From Bremerella volcania (GTDB lineage Bacteria; Planctomycetota; Planctomycetia; Pirellulales; Pirellulaceae), in assembly GCF_007748115.1 (NCBI RefSeq), contig NZ_CP036289.1, positions 4,154,001 through 4,218,000 of the forward strand: a stretch of DNA of 64,000 bases, in the 5' to 3' direction. This document shows positions 2,788 through 25,876 of the stretch, piece after piece. Each line of letters starts with the position of its first letter. Positions within the stretch are counted from its first letter, which is position 1. A program made the position numbers and the translations under genes. Under the pieces are notes generated by a model, which saw only the letters and a program-made list of their open reading frames with translations, was not told the origin of the DNA and did no database searches.

Positions 2788-5700
2788 ATGTCAATCACGA
2801 CCGATCGAACCGATGTTCCGGTAGCGATTGTTGGTATGGCTTGCCGGCTTCCGGGCGCGGCAAATCTAGAGCAGTACTGGCAACTTATTTCTCAGGGCAA
2901 GTCCGCAGTTGGCGAGGTACCGCCGGATCGACTGAATCGAGAAATCTATTACCATCCCGAAAAGGGAACTCGGGGCAAAACATACTCCACCAAGGCTGCT
3001 CTCCTAACCGATCGTACGTTCAACCGTCAGCGTTGCCCGCTTCCGCAATCGCTGATCGAGTCGGTCGATAACACGCATCTACTTATGACGGAGGTCGCTG
3101 CCGAGGCCTTTCGGCACGCAGGCTACGATCCGTTTCAACTGCCCAATCGAAACGTTTCCGTCTTTATCGGTCACGCTCAGGGAAGCTCTCGGCTGGGAGA
3201 GTTAACGTTCCAGACCTACCTGGATGATGCGATTGCCCTGCTGGAACAAACGCCAGGCTTCCAGGAACTGCCGCTTGAAATGCGCCAAGCCGCCGAGCGG
3301 GAATTGCTGGCCGAACTGAATCAGCAGTTGCCGCCGGGTCCTGACTCCACACGCTTTCTGAATTGCAACATGGTTGCCGGGACCGTCGCCAAGGCTTTCG
3401 GCCTCGATGGTAGCTGGCTGGCATTGAACTCGGCATGTGCGTCTTCGCTTCACGCGATGCTGATGGGTGCCCGGGCCCTGCAGCGTGGTCGTGCCGACGC
3501 CGTGGTTGTGGGTGGAGCCTCCGACTGCAAATCAGACTCGCTGGTACTCTTTTCCAACGCGCAAACCTTGACGAAGGATGACAGCCGTCCGTTCGATGCC
3601 AATGCCGACGGTCTGATCATGTCGGAAGGGTACGTCGCATTGGTCATGAAGACGCTCGACCGAGCTATTGCCGACGGTGACCCGATCCAGGCAGTCGTCC
3701 GCGGGCTGGGTGTAGCCACCGACGGACGCGGCAAAAGCCTCTGGGCACCGCGGAAGGAAGGCCAAATGCGAGCGATGCGTCGTGCTTATCGCAGCGGTGC
3801 AGATGCTTCGCGTTTGCAATATCAGGAGTGCCACGCGACCGCGACCCAGGTTGGTGATGCCACCGAACTGGAAACGCTGCGCGAAGTGCTTCAGCCCCAA
3901 TTCGCACCGGGGAAGAAGATTCCGATTACCAGTGCCAAAGCCAACATTGGGCACTCGCTCGAAGCTGCTGGCATCGCGGGGATGATCAAGACGATCTTGT
4001 GCATGCAGCACAAGCAGTTCCCCGCCGCAATCAACATTCAGCAGTTGAATCCGAAAGTACCGTGGGACGATTCTCCATTCTTCGTACCGATGAAACCCGC
4101 TGTTTGGGAAGCCCCGGAAGATGGCGGCCCACGCTGTGCCGGCGTCAATGCGTTTGGCATCGGCGGACTGAACATGCATGTCGTGATCGATGAATACGTC
4201 GGCCAGACGACCGAACAGATTTGCGGACCAAGTAAACCTGCTGTGGAATCGGCCGAGGATCGAGCCATCGCCGTCGTCGGCATGGGGTGTATCGTTCCAG
4301 GTGCTGATGAACTCGACCAACTCTGGAACCTCGTTCAATCAGGCACCGATCCCAAGAGCCAGCCACCTGCTGATCGCTGGTCCGAACAGTCACGCGAGCG
4401 AGCAAACCGGGAAGGTTATTCTCCGCTGGGGGGCTTCATCGAAAAGTACGAGTACGATTGGCGTAAACATCGCGTCCCTCCCAAACAAGTCCAGGAAGCG
4501 GATCCGCTTCAGTTCATGTTTCTCGATGCCAGCGAGAAGGCCTTGGCCGATGCCGGCTACGATCGCGACTCCATCCCGAAAGAACTCGCAGGCGTCGTCG
4601 TCTGTACTGAATTCGGTGGCGATTTTTCTGATCAACTCGAGATGGGACTTCGAATTCCCGAAATGCAGGCCATCCTTGCGCGGCGGCTGGCCGAAAAGGG
4701 ATTGCCGCCTGAGCAAATCAGTACCATCAACGAGAACTTCAGCAAGCACCTGTTGAAGAAGTGGCCAGCGCTAGTTGATGAAACTGGCAGCTTTACCAGC
4801 AGTACGTTGGCTTCGCGGATTAGTAAAACGCTTGACCTCAAAGGGGGAGCCGTCGCTATCGACAGTGGCGCCACCAGTGGCATGTCCGGCATCGCCTTGT
4901 GCATCGACTCATTGCTCTCCGGCGACAACGACATGATGATTTGCGCCGCTGGTCAACGACGCATGGGCCCTACCATTTACGATGGTCTCAAAGCGGCTGG
5001 CTTGCTCAGCACAGATGGCCAAGCGAAAGACTTGTGGGACGCCGAATTCAGTGGCATTGTCCCAAGTGAAGGGGTTGCAGTCGTCGTACTGAAGCGTCTT
5101 GCCGATGCCCGTCGGGACGGGGACAAGATTCGCGCGGTTATTCGAGGTCTTGGCGTCGGCACGCATGACAACCCGGCTGAAGCCATGCGTTTGGCTGTTG
5201 AGCGATCCTCGGTGATGGCGGGCATCGACCCATCAGAAGTCGAATTCGTCGATCTAGAAACAGACGAGAGCCGTGAAGTTTGCTCGTCATCCTTGGCGAT
5301 GCTTGCTCATTCTCACGTCGAGGGAACACGGCAGCATCCGCTCAATCTCGCATCGACCACCGCCCAGTTCGGCCAAATGGGTGGCGGCGGTCCGATGCTG
5401 GCATTGGTTAAAGCCGCACTCGAGTCGCAAAAACAGGAAGTCGCACAAGGGATCGGTGTTCGGAAAGGAACGGGCCCGAACCTGGAATCCGTGCTTCGCG
5501 GAAACACCAAGCTGAGCCAACGAGGCCTCGGTGGTGTCGCCAACTGGGCCAAGGGTCAGGCTTTCTATCTATTGCTGGACAACGGTTCGCACGTTACGCC
5601 CAAGCCAGAAGCCGCGACTCCTGTCGTTGATCAGGCACCAGTAAATTCTGAGGCGAAGATCATCCGGCTTGGTGCGACCAGCCACCAACAATTGCTTGAG

Positions 5701-8700
5701 CGTCTTAGCGATGCCGTGAGCCGCGCCGAGTCGATCTGGAATGGTCCGTCTTCCGAGAAGTTCAACCCTGGTGATGCGTTTCGACTGGCGATCGTTGCGG
5801 ATAGCCTCGCTAGTTTTTCCAAGAAGCTCGTGATGGCGTCAAGCCAAATGGGGAATGCCTCGGCTCAGCAGGTTCTGGAACAACAAGGCATCTTCTATCG
5901 TCAGCGGCCACAAACACCACCTCGCGTTGCATTCGTGTTTCCGGGGCAAGGTTCGCAATACGAAGGAATGCTGAAGGAACTAGTCGCCGTCTCGCCAGAA
6001 GCAGCGAAGACCGTCGCCGAAGCGGACGCGGCCATGCAGCGTCAGGGATTCCCGACGTTTTCGCAGTTGGCCTGGGAAGTTCCCACCCAACTTGGCAAGG
6101 ACGTGTTTCAAACGCAGATCGCCATGCTGCTGGCCGACCTGACGTGCCTGGCAACGCTCAAGCAACAAGGGATTACACCTGATTTGGTTCTAGGACACAG
6201 TTACGGAGAATTTCCCGCACTGTACGCCGCTGGCGTTTGGAACCTGGACGATGTCATTCGCATGACGAAAGCTCGCTGCGATGGCATTCTGGCAACTTCC
6301 AAGAACGATGCCGGACTCTTGGCAACGACTGCCGCTCCTGACGAGATCAAGCGGCTCATTGCCGATTGCGGTTGCCAGGCCTACCTGGCCAACTTCAATG
6401 CTCCCGACCAGACCGTGATCGGCGGAAAGCTGGTCGCTCTGCAACAGTTGGCAACGGCGCTTAAAGCAAAATCCTACCCAGCTCGTATTTTGGCGGTACC
6501 GGCGGCGTTCCATACGCCCCTCATGGCAGGCTCCAGCCGGCTCTTGCAACAAGCGTTGGAAACCGCGTCACTTGCTCCTCCTTCGACTCCATTTGTCAGC
6601 ACGGTCGACAATCAACAAATCACCGATGTCGAACGCATCAAGCGAAATCTGGGGATTCAATTAACGACCCCTGTTAAATACGTCCCCTTGATTGAGCAGC
6701 TTGATCAAGAAGCTCCCACTGTGTTCGTTGAAGTCGGCCCTCAACAGACGCTGACCAAATTGAACCGAAAGATCTTGTCGGCCGAGGCCAACGTCATCGC
6801 TGTCGACAATCCCAAGCGAGGGGCCTTGGAGTCCCTACTGGGCGTTCAAGCACTGCTTGATTGCCTCGGCGTGGGGGAGGCTTCGGCCCAGCCCAAACCT
6901 TTCAAACCAAACTTTGTTTCTGAAACTTCTACAGCACCGCAGCGTGCTGCGAAATCCGCGTTAACACCTTCCCACGAGATGAACCTGATGGACGATATTC
7001 CGCACTTTGATGCGACCGAACGTCGAAGAGCAAAGATGCGAGGAGCTTCGGATCGCCCGGTAGCTGCCGCACCGCAGGCACAACCTGCCCCTCCGGCAAC
7101 TCCGCCTCAGCCTGTTGCTCCGCCGCCAGTCAGCCCGCCCAAGGTATCGACGCCGACTCAACCGGCCCCTACTAAGCCGCTCCCACCAATTACACCGCCA
7201 TCAGTCCCTGCGGCTCCGCAGCCGGTTGTTCCACCAGCCACGCCGTCGATGAACGGTTCGGGGAACCACTATACCAATGGCTCGGCGAACGGTTCGGCCA
7301 ACGGCGCAGCCGCCAAGTCCGCTCCAAAGTCCAACGCGGTGGATCTCGAAAAGTTCCTCGTGAACTTCGTCGTCGAGCAGACCGGCTATCCACCGGAAGT
7401 GGTCGACCTCGACGCCGACCTGGAAGCTGACCTGGGTATCGACAGCATTAAGAAGGCTCAGCTCTTCGGCGAGTTGCAGGAATACTTCGAGATCAGTACC
7501 TCAGCCACTGAGTTGTCGCTTGATGACTTCCCAACCCTACGGCACGTCGTCGACTTTCTGTCAGCCAATGGGGACGCAGCCAGTACGCCGGCAGCCGCCG
7601 CCCCACAGCCAGTTGCCGCGCCTCCGGTTCCGGCTCCAGCTCCGCAGCCAATTGCTCCTCCGGTAGCTGCACCAGCACCCCCAGCCGTCTCCCCGGAACC
7701 AGCGGCTCCGACAAACTCCACGAGCCCAGCCGAACTGGAAGCATTCCTGGTAAACTTCGTCGTCGAGCAAACGGGCTATCCGCCGGAAGTGGTCGACCTC
7801 GACGCCGACCTGGAAGCTGACCTGGGTATCGACAGCATCAAGAAGGCTCAGCTGTTCGGCGAGTTGCAGGAATACTTTGAAATCAGTACCTCGGCCACCG
7901 AGTTGTCGCTCGATGATTTCCCGACGCTGCGTCACGTTGTCGACTTCCTGTCGGCCAACGGACAGGCTTCGAGTTCCGCAGCGGCCTCTCCTGCCCCAGC
8001 CGCTATGGCCGCACCAATTCCGCCGCCACCGCCGGAACCTTCTCCCCCCATACCAGCACCTTTAACCAATGGTGCCACAAACGGATCAACCACCCCGGCG
8101 TCGGAATCTTCCGCCAACCCAGCCGAGTTGGAATCGTTCCTGGTAAACTTCGTCGTCGAGCAGACGGGCTACCCGCCGGAAGTGGTCGACCTCGACGCCG
8201 ACCTGGAAGCTGACCTGGGTATCGACAGCATCAAGAAGGCTCAGCTGTTCGGCGAGTTGCAGGAATACTTCGAGATCAGTACCTCGGCTACCGAGTTGTC
8301 GCTCGACGATTTCCCAACGCTCAGGCACGTGCTCGACTTCCTGTCGGCAAACGGCCAACAAGTCTCCGCGAACTCCAACGCCAACGAGGCATCGTCTTTT
8401 TCCCCGGCCGCTCCGGCGCCGGCCAGGGAAACTAAAACCATCGCGCCGGCCGTAGCTGCTCCTTCCACGGAAGTTGAAGCTACGGACATTACTGATAATG
8501 AGTCGAACGAGGGCACTTCGTCCCTGCAAACGGTCGCTGGTACCCCCTATGAAATGGGCTATACCCACGGCAGCGTGTTCCGTAGCGTTATCCGTCGAAC
8601 TTTGCAAACATATGCTGAGTATGTAGGTGAATCGGTCGACGAGTTGCCGGGATCGCGTCGCTGTCAGCAAGCCTATCAGTTGCTTTCTCCAGACCAACTG

Positions 8701-11700
8701 GATGAACTGCAAGGAATTGCGGATGCGGTCGAAGTTCCTCTGACTAATTTACTAGTTCATCACTTCGTCACGGCGGAACTCCTGTCTCAATCCGAACAGG
8801 TTGCTGCCGAAGGAGGTGATGAATCGGGCATGACGCATGCCGCCAGGATCCTATCCGAAGCAACCGGACCTCTACGGGAAACCATTCGTCTGGCGACGTT
8901 CCTGCGACAGCCGTTGGAAGGCATCCCTCACGTCGGCGTTACCGCCATTGGTACGGTTTATTGCGTGGGTGGGATGAACCGCGATGGTCTTGCCGCTACG
9001 GCAACCGGCGATCCCAATTTGTTCGAAATCCTGGGTACATCACCATCCCTCGAAGAGGCCATCGACACGACATCTTCGCTAGGAAGTCACCCGTATGGAA
9101 ACGTAACTCTCAGCGAGCCAAGGACGCAGCGCCTCGCGACGCTTGAACTTGCCCCGCAAGGTGTTCAGATTGCCAGTGACGGTCCCGTTGCGCGGCAGCG
9201 TCAACCAGAATTGGTTGCTGTCTCCACTGTTTCGTCTCTCTCGATGACCGATTCCAATTGGAGTGATGAAAAGCCAAGTCAACTGGTCGAACAAGATAAC
9301 CAGGACGCATTGGTCATCACCTTCGATTTCGCCGCGGAAACGCTTTCGGTAAAGCATCGCCTTGGTCAATCAGAGGCAGTCCCATACAATCTTGCCGCAT
9401 TGAAAGCGACGCCTGAGCCGAGATTGCGAAGTCAGAGAACCGTCGCCCGTCTCCCCCTCACGCCACCAAATGTCACGGCCCGCTTCGAGATGGAGATGCG
9501 TGATGCACCGTTGTCGGCTTCAGCGGTAGCGCGCATGACTTGGCATGGGGCCGCTATCGTATTGGGCTCGGGACAAATGGCCGATGCTCTCCTCGCGAAG
9601 CTGAGAGATAGCGGTGTCGTCGTCCATCACGTCGCAGATGCGATGAACCTGGATGCAGCCGTTTCGCAAGTGGAAGCAATCTGCGAAGCGGGGCCCGCAC
9701 CTCACCTGTTTATCACCACGGGGCGAGATGGCCATTCATCCGTCGCGATGGCCGACCAGGCGAAGTGGGAGTCGCAGCAACGATCAAGCATGGAGACGCC
9801 GCTATTCGTCTGCCAGAAGTGGCTGGCGATCGCCGACAAGCAAGGCTGGTTACCCCAAGCTACCGCGGTTGCCACGACCTCGCTCGGTGGCGACTTTGGC
9901 TTTAACTCGGGTTCAATCGGTGCTCATAGTGGAGCATTGACCGGGCTGATGAAAGCCATTTTCATCGAGTACACGGTAATGCGTGGCGGCCAAGGCCCCC
10001 GCGTGAAAGCATTCGATACTTGCGCAAGCGATTGCCCAGTTCAAGTTACCGAAAACATCTTCCGCGAACTGGCCTCCGGAAACCTCGACTACGAGGTCTC
10101 ATGGTCAGGCGGTTCGCGGCGTGTTCCGTTTGCCGTCGATATCGCCGCAGAGAGCGTCGCTGCCGACTCGAGTCTTCCTCATGGTGCCTGGGTAGTTACC
10201 GGTGGTGCACGTGGCATTACCGCTGCTTGCGCCTTGGAACTAGGCAAACGATATGGTTTGCGACTTCATCTGCTGGGAAGCAGCCCCCTTCCAGAAATCG
10301 ACCCAAGCTGGCGGTCCCTGGATGACGAAGGACTGAAGAAGCTCAAAGCAGAGACAATGATCGCTGCCCGCAAGGCTGGACAACCGGCTCCTCAAGCATG
10401 GGAACGGGTGCAGAAGAGTCTCGAGATTGATCGTTCACTGCGAGCGTTTAACGAAGCCGGCGTTTCGGCGACATACCATGTTTGCGATGTTTCCAGCCGC
10501 GATTCGCTTGCCAACGTGCTTGAGCACATTCGTCGTACCGATGGGGCAATCACCGGAATCTTGCACGGCGCCGGCATTGATAAATCGTGTCGCTTTGAAA
10601 AGAAAAAACTCGACGTCGTCCATGCCACGATCGGCATCAAAGCTGGCGGCTTGGTTCACCTGGCGGCTCTTACGCGTAAGGATCCGATTCGTCATGTGAT
10701 CGGATTCGGTTCGATCGCCGGCCGCCTGGGTAGCTTCGGTCAGGCTGATTACTGCCAGGCCAGCGATCTTCTATGCAAGTTGTTGGGTGCCTACCGTCGC
10801 CAGCGCCCTTGGGTTCGTGCCGTGGGCTTCCACTGGCATGGCTGGGACGAAGTCGGCATGGCGGCTCGTCCGGAAACGCAAAGCGTTTTGCAGGAAAAGA
10901 GTGACTTGACTCTCATGCCATTGGCCGAGGGACTGGGACACTTCATACGCGAAATCGAAGCCGACACGCCACGAAGCGAGATTCTGATCACCGAACGTCG
11001 TCACTGGAAGCGTTTCGCCGATGGCCTCGGTCAGTTGGCAGAAAGCAAACGCGACAATCCAGCCCAAGAGGTAGCACCTTCGCTCCCATCAACCGAGCCG
11101 CTAGGTCCTGCCGATGCATCGGTCGAGCTACGTACGCAGCGCTGCGAGCTGAAACTGATCGAAGCTCCTCTGGCTGACGGCAGTCCGGCGACTCCAACTT
11201 TCCGAACTCCGGTATGGATTGTGGGAGAGAACGCGGATGCTGTTGCGCTGGAGGCTAAATTGGCCGGACTCGGCGCCGAGGTGTATCGCTTTGGTGTTCG
11301 CGAAGACCTCGATGCCCAGTTGGCCGAGTTGGAAGGGTTGCATCCCGATCGTCCCGCGGGTCACTTATTCCTCCTCTCGACTCGCGATGCGGTGCAGGGG
11401 GATATGCTCTCGGCCGAAGCGATCGAGAAGCGGAGGCATGATGGGATCATCGCTCCGTTCTTTATCGCCCAAGCCTGGTACAAACGGCTGATCAAGTCGC
11501 CGGAGTACGGTCCTGGCACACTTGTCGCGGCGACGAGTCTTGGTGGTGACTTTGGCTTCGAGTCAACCGTTTCGCTGCCTGATGGCGGTGGCATGGCTGG
11601 CTTCGTCAAATCGCTGCATATCGAAGACTCACGGCGAGAAGAGCGTGCCGCACGCTGCAAAGTGATTGATACTCCTGCCAACGAGACGCCACAAACCGTT

Positions 11701-14267: not shown

Positions 14268-15421
14268 GCACTGAGCACCATCCACAGATCCTGTCGCGCG
14301 ACTGCTACACCAGCGAAGAAGTCTTGCAGAAAGAAATCGACTCCGTTCTTCTTCCCGCTTGGCATGCAGTTGCCCTCAAGAGTGAGCTTCCTAAAAACGG
14401 AAGCTACGTTACGTTCGAGATGTATGGTCGTCCGCTTATTCTTTGGCGATACGACGACCAATTCCACTGTTTCTTGAATGTTTGCTCACACCGCTACTCG
14501 AAACTGCGTAGCGATGCGTGTGGCACCTGTGAACGTCTTCGTTGTCAATATCACGGTTGGCAATTCGACGAGACCGGCAATGTTCGCAAAATCCCCGATG
14601 CCAAGTCGTTTCGCCCGCTGAAGCAGGGCATGCTGGGCCTAAAGAAGTATCGCCTGGAAACTTGCGGAGAGTTGATCTTCATCAACCTTGTCGATGAGGG
14701 TCCTTCGCTACGGGAATTCCTGGGCGAGATGTACTCGACGTACCAGGAGTGGTTTTCTCCTGACATGCATACGGCAATCATCCTCAATCGACCGATTCAA
14801 GCAAATTGGAAGTGCCTGGTCGAGAACGCCCTGGAAAGCTATCACACGACCGAGGTCCACCCCAAGACATTTGGCGAGTCCCCTTCCGAGGAGGACTGCG
14901 AACATCAATTGGAAGACTGGGGAAGCGTCCTCAAAGTCGACTTTAGCCAGGAAAAGTCTTTTCGAGCATCGCTCGACAAGTTTGGCCATTGGCTCGTCGG
15001 TCACCAGCGAACCCCAGTGTATCGCCACGTTGCCCACTATCCGAACGTCATGATCGCCCACCTTTCGCTTTACCGCTGGGTGGAATGCGTGATTCCAGTA
15101 TCGCCTGGTAGTTCGACCTCGATCGTCCGCCTGATGTGCCACGTCGGGCAGAAAGGGCAACTACGGCGGCTCTGGAATCGCTACCTGATTAGCCGCTGGG
15201 CCAAAGACTTCTTGTGCCAAGTGGGTGAGGAAGATGCCCAGGTCATGACACAAGTCCAGCACGGACTAAGCTCCATCGACCAGCCCTTGGGTGGCCTGAT
15301 TTCAACGCGCGAAGAACGCGTATATCACTTTCAGCATTACGTCGACCGCGCCGTGAACGACCGACGCGGCGAGCCTGCACGAGACACTATTCCGATTCAC
15401 TATAAAGGTAAGACTTCATGA
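14258..15421 (+). CDS. Rieske [2Fe-2S] aromatic-ring-hydroxylase-type oxygenase
   Basis: Oxygenase alpha-subunit-like protein of 387 residues. The Rieske centre is Cys76-x-His78 and Cys96-x2-His99 (CSH and CQYH, 17 residues between). The mononuclear iron site is ENALESYHTTEVH with His196 and His201. Family members hydroxylate, demethylate or desaturate substrates with O2 and electrons from a separate reductase; none is coded next to it, so a general reductase would be needed. The start 14258 is set by AACCAGGAGG at 14241-14250 and overlaps the phosphopantetheinyl transferase by 10 bases; the longer frame upstream lies inside that gene. It overlaps the next gene by ATGA. In the cluster it probably tailors the acyl chain or an amine; choline-monooxygenase-like chemistry is one option. 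Substrate unknown. Confidence 0.9.
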   Translation: MFLSTEHHPQILSRDCYTSEEVLQKEIDSVLLPAWHAVALKSELPKNGSYVTFEMYGRPLILWRYDDQFHCFLNVCSHRYSKLRSDACGTCERLRCQYHGWQFDETGNVRKIPDAKSFRPLKQGMLGLKKYRLETCGELIFINLVDEGPSLREFLGEMYSTYQEWFSPDMHTAIILNRPIQANWKCLVENALESYHTTEVHPKTFGESPSEEDCEHQLEDWGSVLKVDFSQEKSFRASLDKFGHWLVGHQRTPVYRHVAHYPNVMIAHLSLYRWVECVIPVSPGSSTSIVRLMCHVGQKGQLRRLWNRYLISRWAKDFLCQVGEEDAQVMTQVQHGLSSIDQPLGGLISTREERVYHFQHYVDRAVNDRRGEPARDTIPIHYKGKTS

Positions 15422-16182
15422 TTGATTTGACCGGAAAAATGGCACTTGTCACCGGTAGTTCGCGAGGCATGGGCCGTGCTTGTGCGCTTCGCCTGGCGGA
15501 AGCAGGGGCGGATGTCATTGTGAACTACGTGACCTCCCGATCCGCTGCCATGGAAACGGCCAAGGAAATTCGCGCGATGGGTCGTCGATCGTTCGTCGTG
15601 AAGGCCGACGTCAGCCAAAAGGATGATGTCGAATCGATGATGGAATACATCGGCGAACATATCCAGCAATTGGACATCATCGTCAGCAACGCAGCCACGG
15701 GTGGATTCCGCCCCCTGCTTGCCGCGAATGAAAAGCATTTCGAGAACACGTACCACACGAACGTGCTAGCCATGCTGTACCTGGTTCAAGCCGGCATGCC
15801 ACTTTTGGAAAAGAGTAAGGGCCGCGCGAAGGTGATTGGCATCAGCAGCCATGGCAGTGACATGGCCTTGCCATGGTACGGCTTGATCGGAAGCTCGAAG
15901 GCCGCTTTGGAAAGCCTGGCGCGTCACCTGACTCTCGAAGTCGGCGACAAAGGAGTCAACGTTAACATCGTCAAGTCCGGTCTCGTCGAAACCGATTCGA
16001 CGAAGCGGCTTCCCGGCGCGGATCAGATGTTCGCCCACCGCAAGGACAAGACGATGATGGGAGATCGCATGCTTTCCATCGAAGACATCGCTAACGCGGT
16101 GATCTTCCTGGCGTCTCCTCTTTCCGACTTGGTTCAAGGAGAAACGCTGGTCGTCGATGGCGGCGCGGCGGTTCACGTTTAA
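15418..16182 (+). CDS. FabL-like enoyl-ACP reductase (short-chain dehydrogenase)
   Basis: A 254-residue SDR with the nucleotide site TGSSRGMGRA (12-21) and the segment SNAATGGFRPL, which resembles FabL. The catalytic pair is Tyr154 and Lys161 with six residues between (YGLIGSSK). Ordinary ketoreductases have Y-x3-K, while enoyl-ACP reductases of the FabI/FabL type have Y-x6-K. It should therefore reduce the trans-2 double bond of an enoyl thioester with NADPH. This fills a gap, since the megasynthase has KR and DH but no ER domain. Start overlaps the oxygenase stop by ATGA. 21 bases separate it from the next gene. A role as a ketoreductase or a plain FabL of primary metabolism cannot be excluded, but location argues for a trans-acting ER. 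Confidence 0.82.
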   Translation: MIDLTGKMALVTGSSRGMGRACALRLAEAGADVIVNYVTSRSAAMETAKEIRAMGRRSFVVKADVSQKDDVESMMEYIGEHIQQLDIIVSNAATGGFRPLLAANEKHFENTYHTNVLAMLYLVQAGMPLLEKSKGRAKVIGISSHGSDMALPWYGLIGSSKAALESLARHLTLEVGDKGVNVNIVKSGLVETDSTKRLPGADQMFAHRKDKTMMGDRMLSIEDIANAVIFLASPLSDLVQGETLVVDGGAAVHV

Positions 16183-16203
16183 GCAGGCAAAGTATAGGCA
16201 ACT

Positions 16204-17694
16204 ATGAAGTATCACCTGTTAACTGGCGGCACAGGCTTACTCGGCCGCTACCTACTTCGCGACCTGACGTTGGCGGATATTCCGCTGGCGGTCATCGTGC
16301 GCCCCTCGCGAATTGAATCCGCGTTGGGTCGCATTGAGACGGCCATGACCTACTGGGAAAGGGAACTGGGACACGCACTGGTGCGGCCCATCGTCCTGGA
16401 GGGCGACATCACGCAGCCGATGTGTGGCCTGTCCCCTGAAGATCAACGGTGGGTTCAGGAATACTGCGATACCGCCGTTCACTCAGCGGCCTCGCTGACC
16501 TTCTATGCGGAAGAAGACGACGGGGAACCGTGGCGCAGCAACATCCATGGCACCCGAAACATGCTCGAACTCTGCCGCAAGACGGGCATTCGCAAATTCC
16601 ATCACGTCTCGACCGCGTACGTTTGTGGTCAGCGACGGGAAGTCATTCGCGAAGATGAGTTGGATGTCGGCCAACTTCCCAGCAACGACTACGAAGCAAG
16701 CAAGATTACGGCGGAAAAGGAGGTTCGTGCCGCAGGCTTCGATACGTTAACGGTTCATCGACCGTCCATCATTGTAGGAGACTCCCAAACGGGCTTTACC
16801 ACTTCATACCACGGCTTTTACACGCCGCTTCGCCTGGTGCATACGCTGGTTACGACCTTGCCATGGGATGTGATTGCCCAGGGAGACTGGCTAGGTACGC
16901 TGGCACTCTCAGGCGACGAACGAAAGAACCTGGTTCCCGTCGATTGGGTTTCGGCTGCGATGACCGAAGTGATCGCTCGTGAAGATCTTCATGGCGAGAC
17001 CTATCACTTCACCAATCCCAAGGCAGCGACGGTCGCAGACATGCTGGCATCGATGGGAGAAGCGGTTCTTGATTTGGCCAAGCATGAAGCAGCGGATCAA
17101 TCGAAGCTCTCGGAAGACGCGGAAAAGATGATGCAGTCGTTCCGCGATCAGATGAAGGTCTATCAGTCCTATTGGAGTGATGACCCAACCTTCGATAGTA
17201 CGCGCACGGAAACGTGTTTGCCTCACCTGCCCTGTCCCCAGGTTGATCAGTCACTGATGGACCTGTTGGTGAAGTACGCCATCGACAAGAACTTCGGTTG
17301 GCCGCGGGAAACGCCAGTCAGCCGCAAGTTCCCCATTGCCGAAGAGCTGGCCCCCTGGATGAGTCCCAGCGATTCGTCGGACAACTCCGATGATCGACGT
17401 TACGTCAGCCTGCGTATTAGCGGAAACGGCGGTGGCCAGTGGCACATGATTTTGGATCACGGCCGTCTGGTGGGCGTAGGATCTGGCCTGAAAAACGGAG
17501 ACAGCTCAACCTGCTATCTCAACTCCGATACATTCCATCGCCTCACCCGCGGTCAGCTTAGTTGGGAAGCCGCACTGCAATCAGGACGATTGTTCACAGC
17601 TGGAAATGCTACCAGTTCCGAAGAAATCGCCCGATGTTTCCAAGAGTTCTCGACCGCCACCAAGGCCGAGAGTCCTTCCAGTTTCATCCAATAA
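16204..17694 (+). CDS. Thioester-reductase-type SDR fused to an SCP2 sterol-carrier domain
   Basis: The 496-residue protein starts with the NAD(P) motif LLTGGTGLLGRYLL, then HSAASLTFY, HVSTAYVCG and the catalytic YEASK of extended SDRs of the NAD_binding_4 family (fatty acyl-CoA/thioester reductases). These release an acyl chain from a carrier protein or CoA as aldehyde or alcohol. From about residue 395 to 490 the sequence (ISGNGGGQWHMILDHGRLVG, then SDTFHRLTRGQLSWEAALQSG) matches the SCP2 lipid-binding fold, which would hold a long acyl chain. Joining a reductase to an SCP2 domain in one protein is uncommon. The megasynthase has no thioesterase, so this is the best candidate for release. 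The next gene is an aminotransferase, which would accept an aldehyde. Confidence 0.85.
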   Translation: MKYHLLTGGTGLLGRYLLRDLTLADIPLAVIVRPSRIESALGRIETAMTYWERELGHALVRPIVLEGDITQPMCGLSPEDQRWVQEYCDTAVHSAASLTFYAEEDDGEPWRSNIHGTRNMLELCRKTGIRKFHHVSTAYVCGQRREVIREDELDVGQLPSNDYEASKITAEKEVRAAGFDTLTVHRPSIIVGDSQTGFTTSYHGFYTPLRLVHTLVTTLPWDVIAQGDWLGTLALSGDERKNLVPVDWVSAAMTEVIAREDLHGETYHFTNPKAATVADMLASMGEAVLDLAKHEAADQSKLSEDAEKMMQSFRDQMKVYQSYWSDDPTFDSTRTETCLPHLPCPQVDQSLMDLLVKYAIDKNFGWPRETPVSRKFPIAEELAPWMSPSDSSDNSDDRRYVSLRISGNGGGQWHMILDHGRLVGVGSGLKNGDSSTCYLNSDTFHRLTRGQLSWEAALQSGRLFTAGNATSSEEIARCFQEFSTATKAESPSSFIQ

Positions 17695-17743
17695 ATACAA
17701 GACACGATCGACAACATCGTCAGCGAATCACAGGGGTTTTATT

Positions 17744-19096
17744 ATGTCCGGTACTGTTTCCAAGTTTGAAGCCGCCAATTGCACCGTAAGCTCGCAGGTC
17801 CTCGACCGCGCCAAAAAAAGCTTGGCTGGTGGCGACAGCAGCACTATGCGGGTTCTGCCTTACCACATTCCACTAGTTGCCGACCGTGCCCAAGGGTGCC
17901 GACTATGGGATGTTGACGGTAACGAATACATCGACCTCAACATGTCGTACGGCCCTTTGCTATTAGGTCACCGCCCCAAGGCCGTGATCGAAGCGGTCTA
18001 TCGCCAAATCTCGGAGCAAGGCAGCCAACTCGGCTTCCCAACGGAAGTCACGATGCGTGTGGCTGAAAAGATCAAGAAGCTCTTCCCGAGCATCGAGCTA
18101 CTTCGTTTCGCCAATTCAGGAACCGAAGCATGTGCTTCCGCCGTACGTCTCGCCAAGACGTATACCGGCCGGAACAAGCTGATCATGTTTGAAGGCCATT
18201 ACCACGGTTGGAGCGAAGCAGTATTTACCAAGTACCATGCTCCCCTGGATGAGCTTCCCGAGAAAGGCTACGGTCAGGCCATTCCCGGCACTTCCGGCAT
18301 GGGGGATAGCATTAAGGACGTTATCACGGTTCAGTGGAACGACCTGGATGCTCTGGAACGAGCCCTAGCCGAACACGGCGACGAAGTGTGCGCGGTAATG
18401 ATGGAACCCATTTCAGGCAACGCCGGTTTGCTGATGCCCAAGGATGGTTACCTGGCAACGGTCCGGGAAATGGCCCACGATTGTGGTGCTTTGCTCATCT
18501 TCGATGAAGTTATCACCGGCATGCGAGTCTCGCCGGGTGGTGCCCAAGAGCATTACCTGGTCAGCCCTGACATCACCGTCATGTCCAAGGCGATGGGTGG
18601 TGGTTACCCGGTCAGCGCGTTTGGTGCCTCGGCCGAGATGATGCAGTGCATCGTGAAAGGCCCACTGTTCCATGGCGGCGTCTTCTCTGGAAATGCGATT
18701 GTGATGTCGGCCGCGGAAGCCGTCCTCGATACGGTCCTGGCAGACAAAGAGGGCATTTACGGTCACTTGAATGCCGTTTCCGACCAGCTCGCCAATGGCG
18801 TGAAGGACATCTACTCGCGTCTGAACATTCCGGCTCAGGTCAATCACCTGGGTCCGCTGATGGCAGCCATGATTACGAAGGAAGAGACGGAAGGTCTCTA
18901 CAACTATCGCGATGTTCGTCGTCACGCCGACTTTGATCGCTACATTCAGTTCCAACACTGGATGCAACAGCGTGGCGTCTATTTCCACCCCAACGAGTTC
19001 GAACCGATGTTCCTGTCCATCGCTCATTCGTCGCGTGACATCGACGAAGTCCTCGAGCGTTGGGAAGAAGGTGCACGCCAATGCCTGGTACGTTAA
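17744..19096 (+). CDS. Class III aminotransferase, glutamate-1-semialdehyde aminomutase (HemL) family
   Basis: A 450-residue PLP enzyme with NSGTEACASAVRLAK, FDEVITGMRVSPGG and the PLP lysine in MSKAMGGGYP. The Asp-Glu pair before the Lys and the overall layout fit the HemL subgroup. In lipopeptide pathways such as iturin and mycosubtilin, related aminotransferase domains put an amino group on a beta-keto acyl chain, so a similar role is reasonable here; transamination of an aldehyde from the reductase is the other. The start ATG 17744 comes 49 bases after the previous gene, behind ACAGGGG at 17730-17735. The upstream extension of the frame overlaps the reductase and is rejected. Its 3' end overlaps the ligase by 16 bases. 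It is unlikely to be the haem pathway enzyme, given the operon. Confidence 0.88.
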   Translation: MSGTVSKFEAANCTVSSQVLDRAKKSLAGGDSSTMRVLPYHIPLVADRAQGCRLWDVDGNEYIDLNMSYGPLLLGHRPKAVIEAVYRQISEQGSQLGFPTEVTMRVAEKIKKLFPSIELLRFANSGTEACASAVRLAKTYTGRNKLIMFEGHYHGWSEAVFTKYHAPLDELPEKGYGQAIPGTSGMGDSIKDVITVQWNDLDALERALAEHGDEVCAVMMEPISGNAGLLMPKDGYLATVREMAHDCGALLIFDEVITGMRVSPGGAQEHYLVSPDITVMSKAMGGGYPVSAFGASAEMMQCIVKGPLFHGGVFSGNAIVMSAAEAVLDTVLADKEGIYGHLNAVSDQLANGVKDIYSRLNIPAQVNHLGPLMAAMITKEETEGLYNYRDVRRHADFDRYIQFQHWMQQRGVYFHPNEFEPMFLSIAHSSRDIDEVLERWEEGARQCLVR

Positions 19097-20562
19097 CGCC
19101 AAAATCAGTATGGAGCCCCACTCCCATACTAAAGGCAGCAGAGAGCTATCGCGGTAAGATCTTTGACATAGATTCTGGCCGCAGTGTCTCTTCCGATCAA
19201 TTTCAACGCCTGCGACAACAACTCACTCAAACCCTGAAGCAGAAAGGCATCGCTGCTGGCGATCGTGTTCTGGTCACGATCGCTAATGGACCGATATTCC
19301 CGATCGCACTCACGGCTTTGCTCGAGTGCGAAGCTTCTCCCCTGTTGGTGCACGTGATGACGCCCCCTGCCGAGTTGGCTCGCTATGCCCAACGATTCGG
19401 CGTGAAGTGGCTCATCTCTTCAGGCGGTGACGAACAAGCCGAGTCGGTTCTCGAACGACATGGCATGATCTTCGCTGGCGATGACTGGAGCCTCTTGTTG
19501 GGACGTTTTCCCGAACCGACCAGCATTCCAGGTCCCGAGCTACGCGGAGTGCCCCTCCATCCCACGTCTGGATCGACGGGACTACCCAAGATTGCGCTTC
19601 GTCCGGGTTTTCCAGCGATGGAAGAAGCCCGTCATTACACGGCAACAATGGCCATCTGTGAAGATGATTGCATGATGGCTATTCCGCCGATGAGCCATGC
19701 CTATGGCTACGGCGTGACGACCATGGTGCCCCTGCTGACTGGGGCGAGTATCGTCACCACGGCAAAGTTCAGCGTCAAGCAACTGGCACGCGTCTTACGT
19801 GAGTTCCCCGTAACCGTACTGCCGATGGTTCCTGCTCACATCGATATCCTCCTCTTCGGCGGTGGCATCGATTTCGGACGCCTACGATGGCTGCTGACCG
19901 CGGGCTCGATGATGCCAAAACGGTCGGCCGTGCAATTCCGCAAAAAGACTGGCGTAACAGTTTGTCCCTTGTACGGCACCACGGAAACAGGGGGCATCTC
20001 AGTTGCGACGATTGCGGATGGCCAAGATGTTGATGGACGCGTCGGACCACCGATGGACGGTGTCGAAGTCCGCGTACACCCCCCCGCCAATGCCGACGAA
20101 CTTGGGCTTGAACCCGGCGTAGGCAAGCTACACGTGAAGAGTTCTTCCATGATGACTGGATATCTTTCCGATACCGGTGAAGTGCTCACACCATGGGACG
20201 AAGATGGCTTCTTCGAGACGGGCGATCTATCGAAGGTGGTGGAAGACGGTGTGATTCATCTTCGCGGTCGCACCGGCGAAATGATCAATGTCCTGGGGCT
20301 GAAGGTCGTACCATGCGAGGTCGAAGAGGTCATCGCGGCGATGCCTGGCGTTCGTGAAGTCAAAGTCTATGCCGGGCAGCTAAAGTCCAAGGGAGAGATC
20401 GTCAAAGCCGCGGTAGCCGTCGATGACGGAGTCGATGAGGCCGCCTTGAAGGCCTATTGCGATGAACATCTTGTTTATTACAAGCGTCCGCGAGACTTTG
20501 CGATTGTCGACAAGCTACCCCGAAACCCCGCAGGCAAGATTCAAGTGAAAGAGCTTCCTTGA
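19081..20562 (+). CDS. AMP-forming acyl-CoA/acyl-ACP ligase
   Basis: A 493-residue ANL-family adenylating enzyme. The nucleotide loop is HPTSGSTGLPK; further signatures are YGTTETGG, GDLSKVVEDG (the Asp that binds ribose), RTGEMINVLGLKV (hinge) and the C-terminal catalytic Lys in PRNPAGKIQ. It activates a carboxylic acid as acyl-AMP and passes it to CoA or a phosphopantetheine arm. The start is placed at ATG 19081, inside the last codons of the aminotransferase, with GAAGAAGG about 10 bases ahead. It could load a starter unit on the megasynthase or activate the acid that the downstream condensation-like enzyme joins to the amine. Substrate cannot be read from the sequence. Confidence 0.88.
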   Translation: MPGTLTPKSVWSPTPILKAAESYRGKIFDIDSGRSVSSDQFQRLRQQLTQTLKQKGIAAGDRVLVTIANGPIFPIALTALLECEASPLLVHVMTPPAELARYAQRFGVKWLISSGGDEQAESVLERHGMIFAGDDWSLLLGRFPEPTSIPGPELRGVPLHPTSGSTGLPKIALRPGFPAMEEARHYTATMAICEDDCMMAIPPMSHAYGYGVTTMVPLLTGASIVTTAKFSVKQLARVLREFPVTVLPMVPAHIDILLFGGGIDFGRLRWLLTAGSMMPKRSAVQFRKKTGVTVCPLYGTTETGGISVATIADGQDVDGRVGPPMDGVEVRVHPPANADELGLEPGVGKLHVKSSSMMTGYLSDTGEVLTPWDEDGFFETGDLSKVVEDGVIHLRGRTGEMINVLGLKVVPCEVEEVIAAMPGVREVKVYAGQLKSKGEIVKAAVAVDDGVDEAALKAYCDEHLVYYKRPRDFAIVDKLPRNPAGKIQVKELP

Positions 20563-20588
20563 TCGCTTAGCACCCGCAGGATATCCAT

Positions 20589-21983
20589 ATGTCACAGCTT
20601 GCCATGCAGCCCAATTCCGAAACCAAGTCTCAGTTGGCCAAGCTGTTTCCCTTGCCTCTTTCACCAGTCGAAGCGTTCATGCTGGCCGACGGACGCTCGC
20701 AGTACCCTATGATGTGTGACATCGAAGTCCATGTCCAAGGGACCATCGAACGCGGGCCATTTGAGGAAGCCCTCGCGTTTGCCATTCAACGGGCCCCTTT
20801 CTTTCAAAGCATTGTCGAGAAAGACAAGAAACGCGGTTTAGTCTGGCAGCTGACCAATCGCATGCCAGAAGTCGAATGGGATGAATTCGGCGTTCCCTGT
20901 TTGAATGGTTACGACTCGCTTGTCGATCTCTTTCAAGAGTTGGGGCTCCGCATTTTCGTTCGATCGGGAAGCGATAGATCCTCGTTTCTTCTACATTTTC
21001 ATCATGCCACTTCTGATGGCGTCGGTTCGATCGCGTTTGTCGAAGATTTGTTGACGGCCTACCACAATGCGACCCCTGGCACGAAATTCGTTAAGCCCAG
21101 AAAGTGGGAACCTGAGCGTTTACTCAACCGCTGCAATTCCTCGTTAGACAACCCAGGCTGGAGACGAGGCCTGTACGACGTCTATTGCGGCATTTACGGG
21201 GCCAGCAACTTTTTCCTGCAACGCCCCCTGCCGATGACCGCCAAGCACTCGTCCCTGGCAGACGACGCGACGCGACAACAGAACGGACACATCACCAAGG
21301 CGGTCAGTTCGGAAGCCACATTGGCCATGCGCAAATGGACCTCCGCTGAGAAGGTCACGGTTAATGACGTTTTGCTACGCGACTTGTTCGTTACGCTTCA
21401 TGACTGGATGTCGGACCAAGGCATCGATATTGGCTCGCGTCACCTGAGAATCCTCATGCCGCAAAGCCTGCGAGGAAGAGGTGACGGAGCGATGCCAACC
21501 ACGAACGACATCGGCTTCGCGTTTATGGCACGCCGTGGCGATCTCATTCGCACACCCGATGACCTGTTAAGATCACTCGCGCCGGAGACGGCGGCCATTC
21601 GCAAAGACAATCTCTCCCGCCATTTCATCGGTGGCCTTGCCGCGGTGCAATCCCTGGGGCTCCTTCCATGGATGCTCAATGGATCGTCCTGTTTTTCGAC
21701 GGCCGTACTTACAAACTTCGGCAACTCGTGGCGACGATTTCAAGCGAAACTTCCTCCAGCCGAGGGTGGCCTCACCGCGGGCAATCTCGTGTACGATGGC
21801 CTTACCGGAACGCCACCTTGCCGCCCCAATACGGCAGCGGCATTCTGCGTCTGCACTTCGGCGGATCAAATCTTCGTCAGTCTGAAGCATGATCCGTTTC
21901 ATTACACGCTGGATGAATCTCACGAACTGCTCTCGCGCTATATCGACCAGATTACCAGCAGCGCCGTCGGTCCTTCCGCCTAA
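20589..21983 (+). CDS. Condensation-domain-like acyltransferase (CoA-dependent acyltransferase superfamily)
   Basis: 464 residues. The catalytic motif HHxxxDG is present as HHATSDG (His138-Gly144), in the usual place about 135 residues from the start. N-terminal PLSPVEAFMLADG and the later TAVLTNFGNSW segment fit the superfamily that holds NRPS condensation domains, PapA5 and wax-ester synthase-like proteins. These enzymes join an acyl thioester to an amine or alcohol. There is no carrier domain in the same protein. Position after an aminotransferase and an acyl ligase suggests it makes an amide (or ester) from the aminated chain. It begins 26 bases after the ligase, with GCAGGATAT ahead of the ATG. 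No membrane segment is evident. Confidence 0.8.
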   Translation: MSQLAMQPNSETKSQLAKLFPLPLSPVEAFMLADGRSQYPMMCDIEVHVQGTIERGPFEEALAFAIQRAPFFQSIVEKDKKRGLVWQLTNRMPEVEWDEFGVPCLNGYDSLVDLFQELGLRIFVRSGSDRSSFLLHFHHATSDGVGSIAFVEDLLTAYHNATPGTKFVKPRKWEPERLLNRCNSSLDNPGWRRGLYDVYCGIYGASNFFLQRPLPMTAKHSSLADDATRQQNGHITKAVSSEATLAMRKWTSAEKVTVNDVLLRDLFVTLHDWMSDQGIDIGSRHLRILMPQSLRGRGDGAMPTTNDIGFAFMARRGDLIRTPDDLLRSLAPETAAIRKDNLSRHFIGGLAAVQSLGLLPWMLNGSSCFSTAVLTNFGNSWRRFQAKLPPAEGGLTAGNLVYDGLTGTPPCRPNTAAAFCVCTSADQIFVSLKHDPFHYTLDESHELLSRYIDQITSSAVGPSA

Positions 21984-22054
21984 GCGCTATTTTGGCCTAT
22001 CATAAGGGTTTCCATGGAAACTCGTTAATTCTCAAAGCCAATTGCGACGGATAC

Positions 22055-25000
22055 ATGCGCCCTGAGTTCTGGATTGATGTTGGAGGAACGTTCACAGATT
22101 GCCTGCTTCACTTAACAGGTCAAGCGACTCGCCGAAAAAAGGTCCTTAGTTCCGGCAAAATGCAAGGAACCATTGGCAAGGGAAGTACCCGTCATTCCAT
22201 CTTCGATCCGATTCGGTGCGAAGATCCTCCCGGCATATGGCGCGGGTATCACCTCGAGCTGTTTGACCACCGTGGCCAATGGATTGAGTCGCAGTTAGTT
22301 TCGGAGTTTGACCCTGCCAGCGGTCAGTTAATGCTCTCAGGTCCGCTCGCCGAGATGCCGCAACCGGGAAATGTCTACCAACTGACGGGGCACGAAGAAG
22401 CACCTCTGCTATCCATTCGGTACTTGCTCGGGCTATCCCTAAGTGATCCCACTCCTGCGGTGAATATTCGCCTGGGAACAACGCGCGGCACGAATGCCCT
22501 ACTGACACGGACCGGCGCCGACGTCGGCCTGGTCATTACCGAAGGCTTCGCCGACATTCTAGAAATCGGTTCACAAAGTCGCCCGCATCTTTTCAACTTG
22601 GACATCAAGAAGCCAAGTTCGCTCGTATCGAGAATCGTCGAAGTGAAAGAACGACTCGATGCTCAAGGCAGCACCCTTGTTTCAATCGATGAGGTCGACC
22701 TCCAAGAAAAGCTGACTAGTCTTTACGCGTCCGGCATACGCAGCGTGGCGATTTGCTTCCTACACGCTTACCGCGAACCCAAGCACGAGAGAATCGCGGC
22801 AAAGATTGCAAGCGAAGTCGGATTCACGGATGTCAGCGTTTCCCACTTGGCCGCTCCGCTGATTAAGATCGTTTCGCGCGGGGACACCACGGTAGTGGAC
22901 GCCTACCTCAACCCAATTCTCAGGGACTACGTCCGGCAAATTCAATCGAAGCTAGATCCGAGCAGCCAGATTCGCTTGTTAACTTCCGCCGGGAGCTTGG
23001 TCGCTGCGGAATCTTTCTCGGGCAAGGACAGCATTCTTTCCGGGCCGGCCGGTGGCGTTGTGGGGTTTGCAGCGGCTGCGAGAGCCGTTGGATTCAACAA
23101 AGCCATTGGCTTCGATATGGGAGGGACCAGTACGGATGTTTCCCGCTTCGATGGCACCTACGAACGCCAATTCGAAACAGAAAAGGCAGGCGTGCGAATC
23201 GTCGCGCCCATGATGGCAATCGAAACGGTCGCAGCGGGTGGCGGCTCGATCTGCGCATTTGATGGCGTGAAATTGGTGGTTGGCCCACGGAGCGCCGGTG
23301 CTGACCCCGGTCCGGCGTGCTATGGCCGAGGCGGTCCTTTAACGGTTACTGATATCAACTATGCCCTCGGCAAGTTACAAGCAGCCCGGCTTCCCTTTCC
23401 GCTCGATGCCGAAGCGGTTGATCGACGATTGGCGGAAGTCTGCCAACAGGTTGAAGTAGCAACCGGTCATAAGCGAACGCCACTGGAACTAGCTGCTGGT
23501 TTCCTACAGATTGCCAATGCCAACATCGCCGAAGCGATTCGCACGATCTCGGTCGCCAAAGGCTATGATCCGCGATCCTACCTGCTCGTCCCCTTCGGTG
23601 GAGCGGCCGGCCAACATGCTTGTGCCGTCGCAGAAATCCTTGAGGCTCGACAACTTTTGTTTCACCCCAACGCCGGCATCCTTAGCGCTGTGGGCATCGG
23701 TGCAGCGGAGACATCCCGGTTCGCAACCCAACCCTTCTACCTGGCTTTCGAGGAGGCATCCCCAGAGCTGGAATCTTCACTTGAGGCATTAAAACAGACC
23801 GCAAATACCCAGCTTCATGAAGAAGACGTCGACGAGAATTCGATTACCTATCAGAAGCAGATCGAATTAAGGTATCGAGGGCTTGAAGCTTCGCTGACGA
23901 TTGAGGCAGACCCCCTCGACAGCCTTGAGCAACGCTACCACGCGGAGCATCGCCGCCGCTACGGTTATGATCGTACCGAACACCCGATCGAGGTCGTCGC
24001 GGCCCGTGTCGAAGCGATCAGCCACGGCACTACCGACTCGGTTCTCAGCGAGCCTCGCCCTTCGTACGAACCAGAGGCAGTCAAGGTCGTTCCTCTTGTG
24101 TTCCAAGGAGATCAAGTCGACACCAAGGTTTACGACCGAGACCAACTGCGGCCAGGGGCAAAGATAGTCGGACCTTCGCTCATAGCCGAGCCGTTGGCGA
24201 CGACCGTCATCGACCCAGGCTGGGAAGCGGAAATGCTAAGTGCAGGTGAACTGCTGGCGCGGCGAGTTGCTCGTCAAAACGAGTCAGACGATCAGGGCTC
24301 CTTAGATTCACTCAACATTCCCGACCCGATCCTGCTCGAGATCCTCAACAATCAATTCGCGGCCATTGCCGAGCAAATGGGCGTTGCCCTGCAAAACACA
24401 TCCGTCAGCGTAAACGTGAAGGAACGTCTTGATTTTAGTTGTGCGTTATTCACTTCTGCTGGCGACTTGATCGCGAACGCACCTCACATACCGGTTCACC
24501 TAGGTGCGATGGCGGAAACGGTCAAAGCAACGATTGCATATCACCCGAACATGAGAAGTGGCGATGTGTTCGTTACCAACGATCCGTACCATGGCGGTTC
24601 CCATCTGCCAGACGTTACGGTGATTACGCCAATGTTCGTCCGTGATTCCGATGTCCGGCCCACTTTTTTCGCCGCCAGCAGGGCACACCACGCTGAGATC
24701 GGAGGTATTGCCGCCGGCTCGATGCCATCTGGGTCGCTGAACCTGGCAGAAGAAGGCGTCCTGATCGAAAATTTCCGGTTGATCGAGGCAGGCACTCCAC
24801 ACTGGGAAGAACTGGAAAAGATTCTCACCGAGGCACCATTTCCCTCTCGCAAAGTTTCCGACAACCTGGCTGACATTGCCGCCCAGATCGCCGCGAATCA
24901 TCACGGGATCGAAGACCTCAAACGGATGGTGCATCAAAACTCGTTAGATACCGTGGTGGCCTATGCAAAGCATATTCAGGCGGCCGCCTCCCGAAAAACA

Positions 25001-25876
25001 CGTGCGGCACTCGCGAAGATCCCACCAGGGCGTTACGAGTTCATCGACCACCTGGATGATGGCTCTCCTCTGTGCGTTGCCATCGACCTGCAGGGAGAAA
25101 CCGCAACGATCGACTTCTCTGGCACCGGGCCTGTGCTACCCGGCAATCTCAACGCGAATCGAGCGATTGTAACGGCGGCGGTCATGTACTGCTTGCGGTG
25201 CCTACTCAGTGAAGACATTCCCTTGAATCAAGGCGTGCTCGAACCGGTCGAGATCATTCTTCCTGAATGTTTCCTGAATCCACCGAAGCAACCAACACCA
25301 GAAATGTGCGCAGCTGTCGCCGGCGGTAACGTGGAGACGTCGCAGCGGATCGTGGATGTCCTCTTGGGAGCGCTCGGCATGGCAGCCGCCAGCCAAGGAA
25401 CCATGAACAACTTGACCTTTGGAGACGCGACGTTCGGTTACTACGAAACGATCTGTGGAGGATCCGGGGCGACGAAAAATGCTCCCGGTGCATCTGCCGT
25501 TCATACCCATATGACCAACACGCGACTCACGGATGCTGAAGTCTTTGAGCTACGCTTCCCGGCGAGAATTCGACGGTTCGCCGTACGCCGGGGCTCAGGC
25601 GGAGGCGGTTACCATCGCGGTGGTGATGGGATTATTCGTGAAATAGAATTCTTACGACCGCTTGAGGTCTCACTTCTCACTCAGCGCCGCGGCCCCTATC
25701 CACCGTACGGTCTGAATGGAGGGCGGCCTGGGATGTGTGGCGAAAATTTGATTCAACGCAAGAACGAGGTAGAAACTCATTTACCCAATACGACCAGTCT
25801 GTCGGTAAATACAGGAGACATCCTCATCGTGAGGACGCCTGGCGGCGGCGGATTCGGGAAACCAGAAACGGAATAA
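22055..25876 (+). CDS. Fused hydantoinase A/B, 5-oxoprolinase-like ATP-dependent hydrolase
   Basis: About 1273 residues joining HyuA and HyuB parts. The A part has the ATPase motifs [25 protein letters not shown] and [13 protein letters not shown], plus [18 protein letters not shown]. The B part begins near residue 755 and shows [14 protein letters not shown] and [10 protein letters not shown]. Fused proteins of this size open lactam or imide rings (5-oxoproline, hydantoins) with ATP. The start is set at ATG 22055 because the family begins right before the VGGTFTD loop; the frame is open to 21992 but those residues are not family-like. It follows the condensation-like gene by 71 bases on the same strand. 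It may open a lactam in the cluster product or recycle pyroglutamate and belong to the operon only by position. Confidence 0.88.

Follow-up and report, generated by a model that had tools for sequence, protein, structure and literature searches.

A conserved, uncharacterised secondary-lipid gene cluster of planctomycetes that joins a PfaA-like synthase to a paired aminotransferase and ligase

Introduction

The complete 6.5 Mb genome of the planctomycete Bremerella volcania carries a conserved and uncharacterised secondary-lipid cluster of about ten genes, located in a stretch of 64,000 nucleotides (contig NZ_CP036289.1, positions 4,154,001 to 4,218,000) which was analysed at its full length and is called the window here. 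Eight of these genes, at window positions 2788-21983, code for a PfaA-like polyketide synthase (PKS), a 4'-phosphopantetheinyl transferase (PPTase), a Rieske oxygenase, a short-chain dehydrogenase/reductase (SDR), a thioester reductase (TR), an aminotransferase (AMT), an acyl/aryl-AMP ligase (ACL) and a condensation-fold acyltransferase (CAT); a metallo-beta-lactamase-fold hydrolase (MBL) and an MMPL-type exporter complete the set. The cluster appears to be composed of separately evolving parts, a chain part and a head part. As a tentative reading, to which we grant slightly less than an even chance, a PKS-made fatty alcohol would be capped by CAT with an activated amino acid supplied by AMT and ACL, and the product would be exported by the MMPL protein.

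A preliminary description of this DNA had listed nine genes on one strand, overlapping or separated by short gaps, between positions 2788 and 25876. The open reading frame list and family searches bear out the kinds of gene, the common strand and the tight spacing, and for eight genes also the grouping as a cluster; the count of nine falls because the last gene, a fused hydantoinase (HyuAB), is not a member, and both the exporter and MBL had been missed. The broader proposal of a biosynthetic block that makes a long acyl chain, releases it reductively and joins it through a condensation-fold enzyme is supported by our predictions. As had been stated before, no published cluster that combines these genes is known to us; our searches of open-licence papers in PubMed Central (PMC) turned up none.

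Results and Discussion

Gene content and borders of the cluster

The cluster genes are as follows (some start codons in these coordinates are our choice):

1-1345, running on about 928 bases left of the window, minus strand: MMPL/RND-type exporter, 757 aa, start-codon end in the window (Pfam MMPL 5.6e-23)
1487-2320, plus strand: MBL (Pfam Lactamase_B 4.2e-17; YtnP lactonase 170.3 bits, below the cut-off of 425)
2788-13587, plus strand: PfaA-like iterative megasynthase (PKS), 3599 aa (TIGR02813)
13584-14267, plus strand: PPTase (ACPS 1.8e-09; KExxFK motif)
14258-15421, plus strand: Rieske-type non-haem iron oxygenase (family search, motifs)
15418-16182, plus strand: FabL-type SDR (best NCBIfam match FabL, 265.5 bits, below the cut-off of 328)
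16204-17694, plus strand: TR with a possible SCP2-like tail (family searches)
17744-19096, plus strand: class-III pyridoxal-phosphate aminotransferase (AMT) of a PctV-like family (family search, PDB matches, tree)
19081-20562, plus strand: ACL (family searches)
20589-21983, plus strand: free-standing CAT with an intact HHxxxDG motif (family search, model)

An order-wide search of 296 genomes yielded CAT relatives at 59-90% identity in eight genomes besides that of the window, four of the same genus and four of a sister genus, the latter including Blastopirellula marina DSM 3645 (G093). In all eight relatives, which were chosen by this close CAT match (identity of at least 59%), the order exporter-MBL-PKS-PPTase-Rieske-SDR-TR-AMT-ACL-CAT is kept, so that the cluster is more than a chance neighbourhood.

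The borders are given by three genomes of the same genus (G101, G152 and G188), in none of which AMT was found. There, a left gene of 366 aa (-2065 to -938 in our own coordinates) is followed directly by HyuAB and then by genes for a cupin, an alcohol dehydrogenase, purE and purK. Exactly this site, empty in the three genomes, is filled in the window by the exporter-to-CAT block. Because the empty site is clean, the exporter, a divergent gene inside the inserted block, and MBL belong to the cluster, which hence starts to the left of position 2788.

On the other side, the insertion is adjoined by HyuAB:

22055-25876, plus strand: fused HyuAB (hydantoinase; family search), outside the cluster

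HyuAB is present in all nine genomes tested, including the three cluster-less genomes of the same genus. In four sister-genus genomes it lies apart from the cluster, at a distance of about 488, 460 and 350 kb in G093, G078 and G097, respectively, and on another contig in G015. Since it is kept where the cluster is missing and is remote from it in the sister genus, HyuAB was rejected as a cluster gene; it belongs to the backbone of the family, adjoins the insertion and takes no part in the cluster. A promoter and terminator scan of the gap between CAT and HyuAB gave chance-level results only.

Chain part and head part across 31 loci

The separate evolution of the parts is suggested by a table of 31 loci, compiled with bit-score thresholds on stretches of limited length. 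Dropped from it were G508 (contig ending inside the PKS), L120 and L127 (duplicates of G093 and G013) and L132 (PctV-like); one of the scans scored four candidates per genome (at least 14 of 392). PKS is found in 23 of the 31 rows, 21 of which have TR (not G574 and G612) and 16 CAT. Hereby, the 16 rows with both PKS and AMT all contain ACL and TR, and 14 contain CAT (not G811 and L125). MBL occurs in each of the 15 such loci covering its side (the L119 stretch begins within the PKS) and the exporter in 13 of these 15, i.e. in the window, the eight relatives, G243, G038, G046 and G811, and not in G013, where the best match is at 25%, or L125. The seven PKS rows that have no AMT (G052, G012, G446, G632, G582, G574, G612) are without exception devoid of ACL, MBL and exporter; SDR is found in 7/7 and TR in 5/7 of them. 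No PPTase was seen in G038, G046, G012 and G446, and the G811 and L125 stretches end before it.

Conversely, in eight rows the stretch contains AMT but no PKS (L121, L122, L123, L124, L126, L129, L130, L131), and in all of them ACL lies beside AMT. AMT and ACL are therewith adjacent and on the same strand in 24/24 AMT loci (the L131 ligase, at 33% identity, scores below the bit threshold used). MBL was not seen in the L121, L122, L124, L126, L130 and L131 stretches. A strict all-or-none behaviour of AMT, ACL, MBL and exporter was therefore rejected, given these six loci and the missing exporter in G013 and L125.

Genome-wide searches behind the eight PKS-free loci returned a good PKS match in G923 (L122), G924 (L123) and G926 (L129) and only weak matches in G927 (L130). 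At E 1e-30, no match came up in G892 (L124), G922 (L121), G925 (L126) and G928 (L131). TR is weak in G927 and was not found in G925 and G928; CAT was detected in G892, G923, G924, G925 and G926. In G922, TR adjoins an exporter 42.5% identical to that of the window. These absences are soft, because many of the assemblies are metagenome bins. In a class-wide search of 397 genomes 15 are AMT-positive, and 14 of these have PKS. The notion that AMT-ACL is wholly free of the chain part is thus only partly borne out, with PKS elsewhere in three genomes and TR in five; within planctomycetes the pair mostly accompanies the chain part, not always adjacent to it. TR and CAT also occur together without AMT, namely in G012, G052 and a second G923 locus.

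The aminotransferase-ligase pair

The AMT had been described as a member of the HemL family. It is indeed a class-III enzyme, which at 369.7 bits stays below the HemL family cut-off of 527.3; it was also rejected as the genome's own HemL, which is a separate gene scoring 622.6 bits. The top PDB matches are 4zm3 (344.5 bits), an entry named only Aminotransferase, and 4zm4 (343.4 bits), which we take to be PctV, a 3-aminobenzoate synthase. Glutamate-semialdehyde aminomutases (GSAM) reach at most 301 bits, and the MycA domain of mycosubtilin 170.6 bits, its match starting only at residue 42. AMT is 42% identical to PctV and 36% to the genome's own HemL. In a tree of 38 rows, rooted at the midpoint for drawing only, a branch with 100/99 support separates 19 AMT rows, PctV and L132, an actinobacterial PctV relative (59% identical to PctV), from 17 HemL-type rows. 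AMT agrees with PctV at nine positions that are rare in HemL. It also keeps Arg36 and Ser33 of the small-acid site, their role in this site being assumed by us from GSAM.

Downstream of the constant pair, the transferase changes. In a planctomycete bin, L122 (9842-15051), AMT and ACL are followed by a carrier-domain (GGDSL)/thioesterase gene and then by a lipid-A-type acyltransferase, an operon that resembles the AlmEFG logic of lipid A aminoacylation. A lipid-A-type acyltransferase also comes after the pair in L121, and a GNAT in L126. Because the pair stays constant while the transferase changes, our best reading is that AMT would make an amino-bearing acid, which ACL would activate and the respective transferase pass on. 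Outside planctomycetes, the pair was seen in a Hydrogenedentota bin (L130) and a Bauldia bin (L131); in the latter, a methyltransferase gene precedes and an FMO-like gene follows it.

The megasynthase

The megasynthase missed the cut-off of the PfaA family (TIGR02813, 919.7 versus 1010.1 bits). It shares with Pfa-type synthases several tandem acyl carrier protein (ACP) domains in one protein as well as the combination of ketosynthase (KS), acyltransferase (AT), ketoreductase (KR) and chain length factor (CLF). Its domain order is KS, CLF-like KS without Cys, AT, three ACPs, a degenerate C45-like domain, two KRs and a dehydratase (DH):

2809-4218, plus strand: KS1 with Cys-His-His (domain search, motifs)
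4222-5667, plus strand: KS2, CLF-like; Cys position Ala in the window and non-Cys in 17/17 aligned sequences
5926-6780, plus strand: malonyl-type AT domain, GHSYG (domain search, motif)
7327-8357, plus strand: three tandem ACP domains (248-nt repeat units, 85-92% identical to the reference copy)
8539-9183, plus strand: degenerate C45-type acyltransferase-like domain, nucleophile Cys lost (NF040521 1e-14, 54.6 bits, below the cut-off of 85)
10183-10857, plus strand: catalytic half of KR1 (approximate), YxxxN reading YxxxS
11836-12501, plus strand: catalytic half of KR2 (domain search, motifs)
12769-13554, plus strand: PKS-type DH domain (PKS_DH_N 2.1e-07, PS-DH 2.8e-05, motifs)

Neither PfaC-type FabA-like dehydratases nor a PfaD-type enoyl reductase appear among the Pfam matches of the cluster genes, which instead contain the PKS-type DH and the FabL-type SDR. 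The Gly-Cys nucleophile of the C45-like domain is lost in the window, its eight relatives, G052 and G446, and kept in G574, G612, G582 and G012. The domain sits between the ACPs and the KR, and in the latter four the synthase might cut itself into two; nothing relevant on C45 domains inside synthases was among the matches listed from open-licence PMC papers. A tandem pair of complete KRs is confined to the window clade and G052 (ten sequences), G012, G446, G632, G574, G612 and G582 having a single KR. In L246 (G923:C44), a related synthase is divided over two genes, which flank an AMP-ligase-like gene and adjoin TR, PPTase and SDR.

Tailoring, transfer and export

The SDR is the best-conserved tailoring enzyme, with 60-99% identity over 22 loci (above threshold or aligned). 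All 16 sequences have the Yx6K catalytic spacing, which we take to be a mark of FabL and which suggests enoyl reduction in trans; the SDR is thus likely a trans-acting enoyl reductase. TR was confirmed by the family searches. For its proposed fusion to SCP2, the tail matches Alkyl_sulf_C, in our assumption an SCP2-like model, at E = 0.0057 and under its cut-off, and in a predicted model (pTM 0.62) its order of strands and helices is compatible with SCP2, which leaves the SCP2 tail weakly supported. In G574 and G612 (L083-L086) no TR lies near the synthase, and the G574 gene after SDR begins as a GH3-type adenylate-forming enzyme. The Rieske gene, found in 10 of 31 loci that all belong to the window genus or close to it, or to the sister genus, is a lineage-specific addition.

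The HHxxxDG motif is present in 12/12 CAT sequences. The CAT model (pLDDT 69.9) has 8f7f as its best Foldseek match (E 2.9e-16) and matches condensation domains of non-ribosomal peptide synthetases (NRPS), CmnI, SgcC5 and PapA5. By motif and predicted fold, CAT is assigned to the condensation-domain superfamily. SgcC5 is cited, in the part of PMC4425429 drawn on here, as forming esters from carrier-bound amino acids. The HxHxDH motif of MBL is found in 9/9 sequences.

Proposed function

What follows on substrates, activities, the order of steps and the product is our reading of gene content, borders, conservation, motifs and folds. Once activated by the PPTase, the PfaA-like synthase would use its CLF and tandem ACPs to build a long chain, to be saturated in trans by the FabL-type SDR. 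TR would free the chain as an aldehyde, probably then an alcohol. The PctV-like AMT would produce a small carboxylic acid with an amino group, for which 3-aminobenzoate derived from 3-dehydroshikimate is a candidate; ACL would activate this acid onto CoA or an ACP. CAT would then link chain and acid, most simply as a fatty-alcohol ester, and the exporter would deliver it to the cell envelope. Wrong thioesters may be cleared by the lactonase-like MBL, and the Rieske enzyme, present only in the window genus and the sister genus, may provide a late hydroxylation. AMT more likely supplies a head group than aminates the chain.

Several observations weigh against this capped fatty alcohol. MxcL, Zmn12 and GntE are absent from the AMT tree, from which MycA, compared by bit score only, was likewise left out; in the case of MxcL, MxcG was above the cut-off in 0/247 Myxococcota genomes. 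An identity of about 42% to PctV need not mean the same substrate. The nearest solved relatives of ACL are malonyl-CoA, 4-coumarate-CoA and 4-chlorobenzoate-CoA ligases, by which its acid is not fixed, and among the proteins encoded in the cluster there is no separate carrier for the amino acid. Two loci that have both AMT and PKS, G811 and L125, show no CAT in their stretches, and G013 and L125 show no exporter; no TR stands beside the PKS in G574 and G612. Finally, a good TR match is found elsewhere in five of the eight genomes behind the PKS-free AMT loci (G892, G922, G923, G924, G926), and AMT may for this reason still depend on TR.

The last point bears on the strongest rival, in which AMT converts the aldehyde released by TR to a primary alkylamine, which CAT then joins to a second acid, activated by ACL, to give an N-acyl alkylamine. 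The zeamine model offers a precedent, since beside Pfa-like genes it combines a thioester reductase and class-III transamination of the aldehyde with a free condensation domain that forms the amide (PMC3547906, in part). TR moreover accompanies AMT and PKS in 16/16 loci and gives a good match elsewhere in five of nine further genomes searched. Yet AMT is tied to ACL in all 24 of its loci and to TR in fewer; the pair occurs in G925 and G928 (Bauldia) with no TR found, although these assemblies may be incomplete; the PctV-like small-acid site is kept; and TR and CAT occur together in the three loci without AMT named above. We therefore regard this route as unlikely, albeit as one to be taken seriously.

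Alternatively, the amino acid from AMT and ACL could be loaded on the synthase as a starter unit and extended to an amino(aryl)-ended chain with release as an alcohol, comparable to pactamycin-type or beta-amino-acid-primed pathways; the product of PctV is the starter of pactamycin. ACL comes without a carrier of its own and the synthase has three ACPs, which would suit such a route. It is nevertheless improbable, as the synthase occurs without AMT-ACL in seven loci, the pair is found with other transferases in L121, L122 and L126, the AT domain is of the malonyl type and no separate loading domain was seen in the synthase. Literature on 3-aminobenzoate-primed synthases was not among the matches listed from open-licence PMC papers.

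Least probable is a beta-amino acyl chain, made by MycA-like amination of an ACP-bound beta-keto thioester, with TR or CAT as the releasing enzyme. Class-III aminotransferases that form part of a PKS/NRPS, such as MycA, act in this manner, and a Burkholderia PKS domain is reported as 40% identical to a GSAM (both PMC3870968, in part), but the AMT of the window is free-standing, matches 4zm3 far better than MycA and stands with ACL also where searches gave no PKS. The same bit scores, and a constant partner that is the ligase rather than TR, weaken the iturin-type analogy drawn earlier.

In its most specific form, the capped fatty alcohol would represent a new class of envelope lipid, in which a PfaA-type fatty alcohol is capped with shikimate-derived 3-aminobenzoate, or a close aminoaryl acid, by a PctV-like enzyme, its paired ligase, a free condensation enzyme and a dedicated MMPL pump, the pair elsewhere in planctomycetes being wired to lipid-A-type or GNAT acyltransferases that decorate other lipids. 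We consider this elaborated version doubtful. Little is known of the lipids and natural products of planctomycetes. Since the cluster is kept in no fewer than two genera, and Blastopirellula marina DSM 3645 is a named record in one of them, its product is testable in culture. The division into a chain part, a pair that makes and activates, a swappable transferase and an exporter leads to sharp mass-spectrometry predictions, and the AMT-ACL pair can serve as a probe for amino-capped lipids in other bacteria.

Relation to described systems

The following comparisons draw on parts of the cited papers. Those on planctomycete genomes refer to hglE-type or type I PKS clusters in general terms only (PMC13190842, PMC8303584, PMC10817699). 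The zeamine and fabclavine clusters resemble ours in having a Pfa-like synthase, a free SDR, a free thioester reductase, a class-III GSAM-related aminotransferase and a free condensation domain; in those clusters, however, aminotransferase and PfaD-type enoyl reductase form one fused protein, and the partner comes from full NRPS modules (PMC3547906), whereas the AMT of the window is free and paired with a ligase, with neither PfaD nor an NRPS module among the cluster genes. The Type R of Shulse and Allen likewise has one large protein with KS, malonyl acyltransferase (MAT), CLF, 3-6 ACPs and KR, with a PPTase gene after it (PMC3098273). Its reported order of KS-MAT-CLF-ACP-KR (PMC3098273) differs from the KS-CLF-AT-ACP3-C45-like-KR-KR-DH of the window, to which reductase, aminotransferase, ligase and CAT are added.

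PctV of pactamycin (PMC5879953) is a family neighbour of AMT at 42% identity on a supported common branch and differs in pathway context, the reaction of AMT being a prediction. Phthiocerol dimycocerosate (PDIM) of mycobacteria is similar as a polyketide lipid with esterification and coupled synthesis and MmpL export (PMC1238737), and CAT structurally matches PapA5, among others; PDIM differs by its modular synthases and another head group, and we claim no homology of whole clusters. Heterocyst glycolipid (hgl) islands, finally, combine a Pfa-like synthase, a thioester reductase and a PPTase to yield long-chain alcohols, with a glycosyl head group and ABC export (PMC11804610) in place of the AMT-ACL pair and the MMPL-type exporter of the window.

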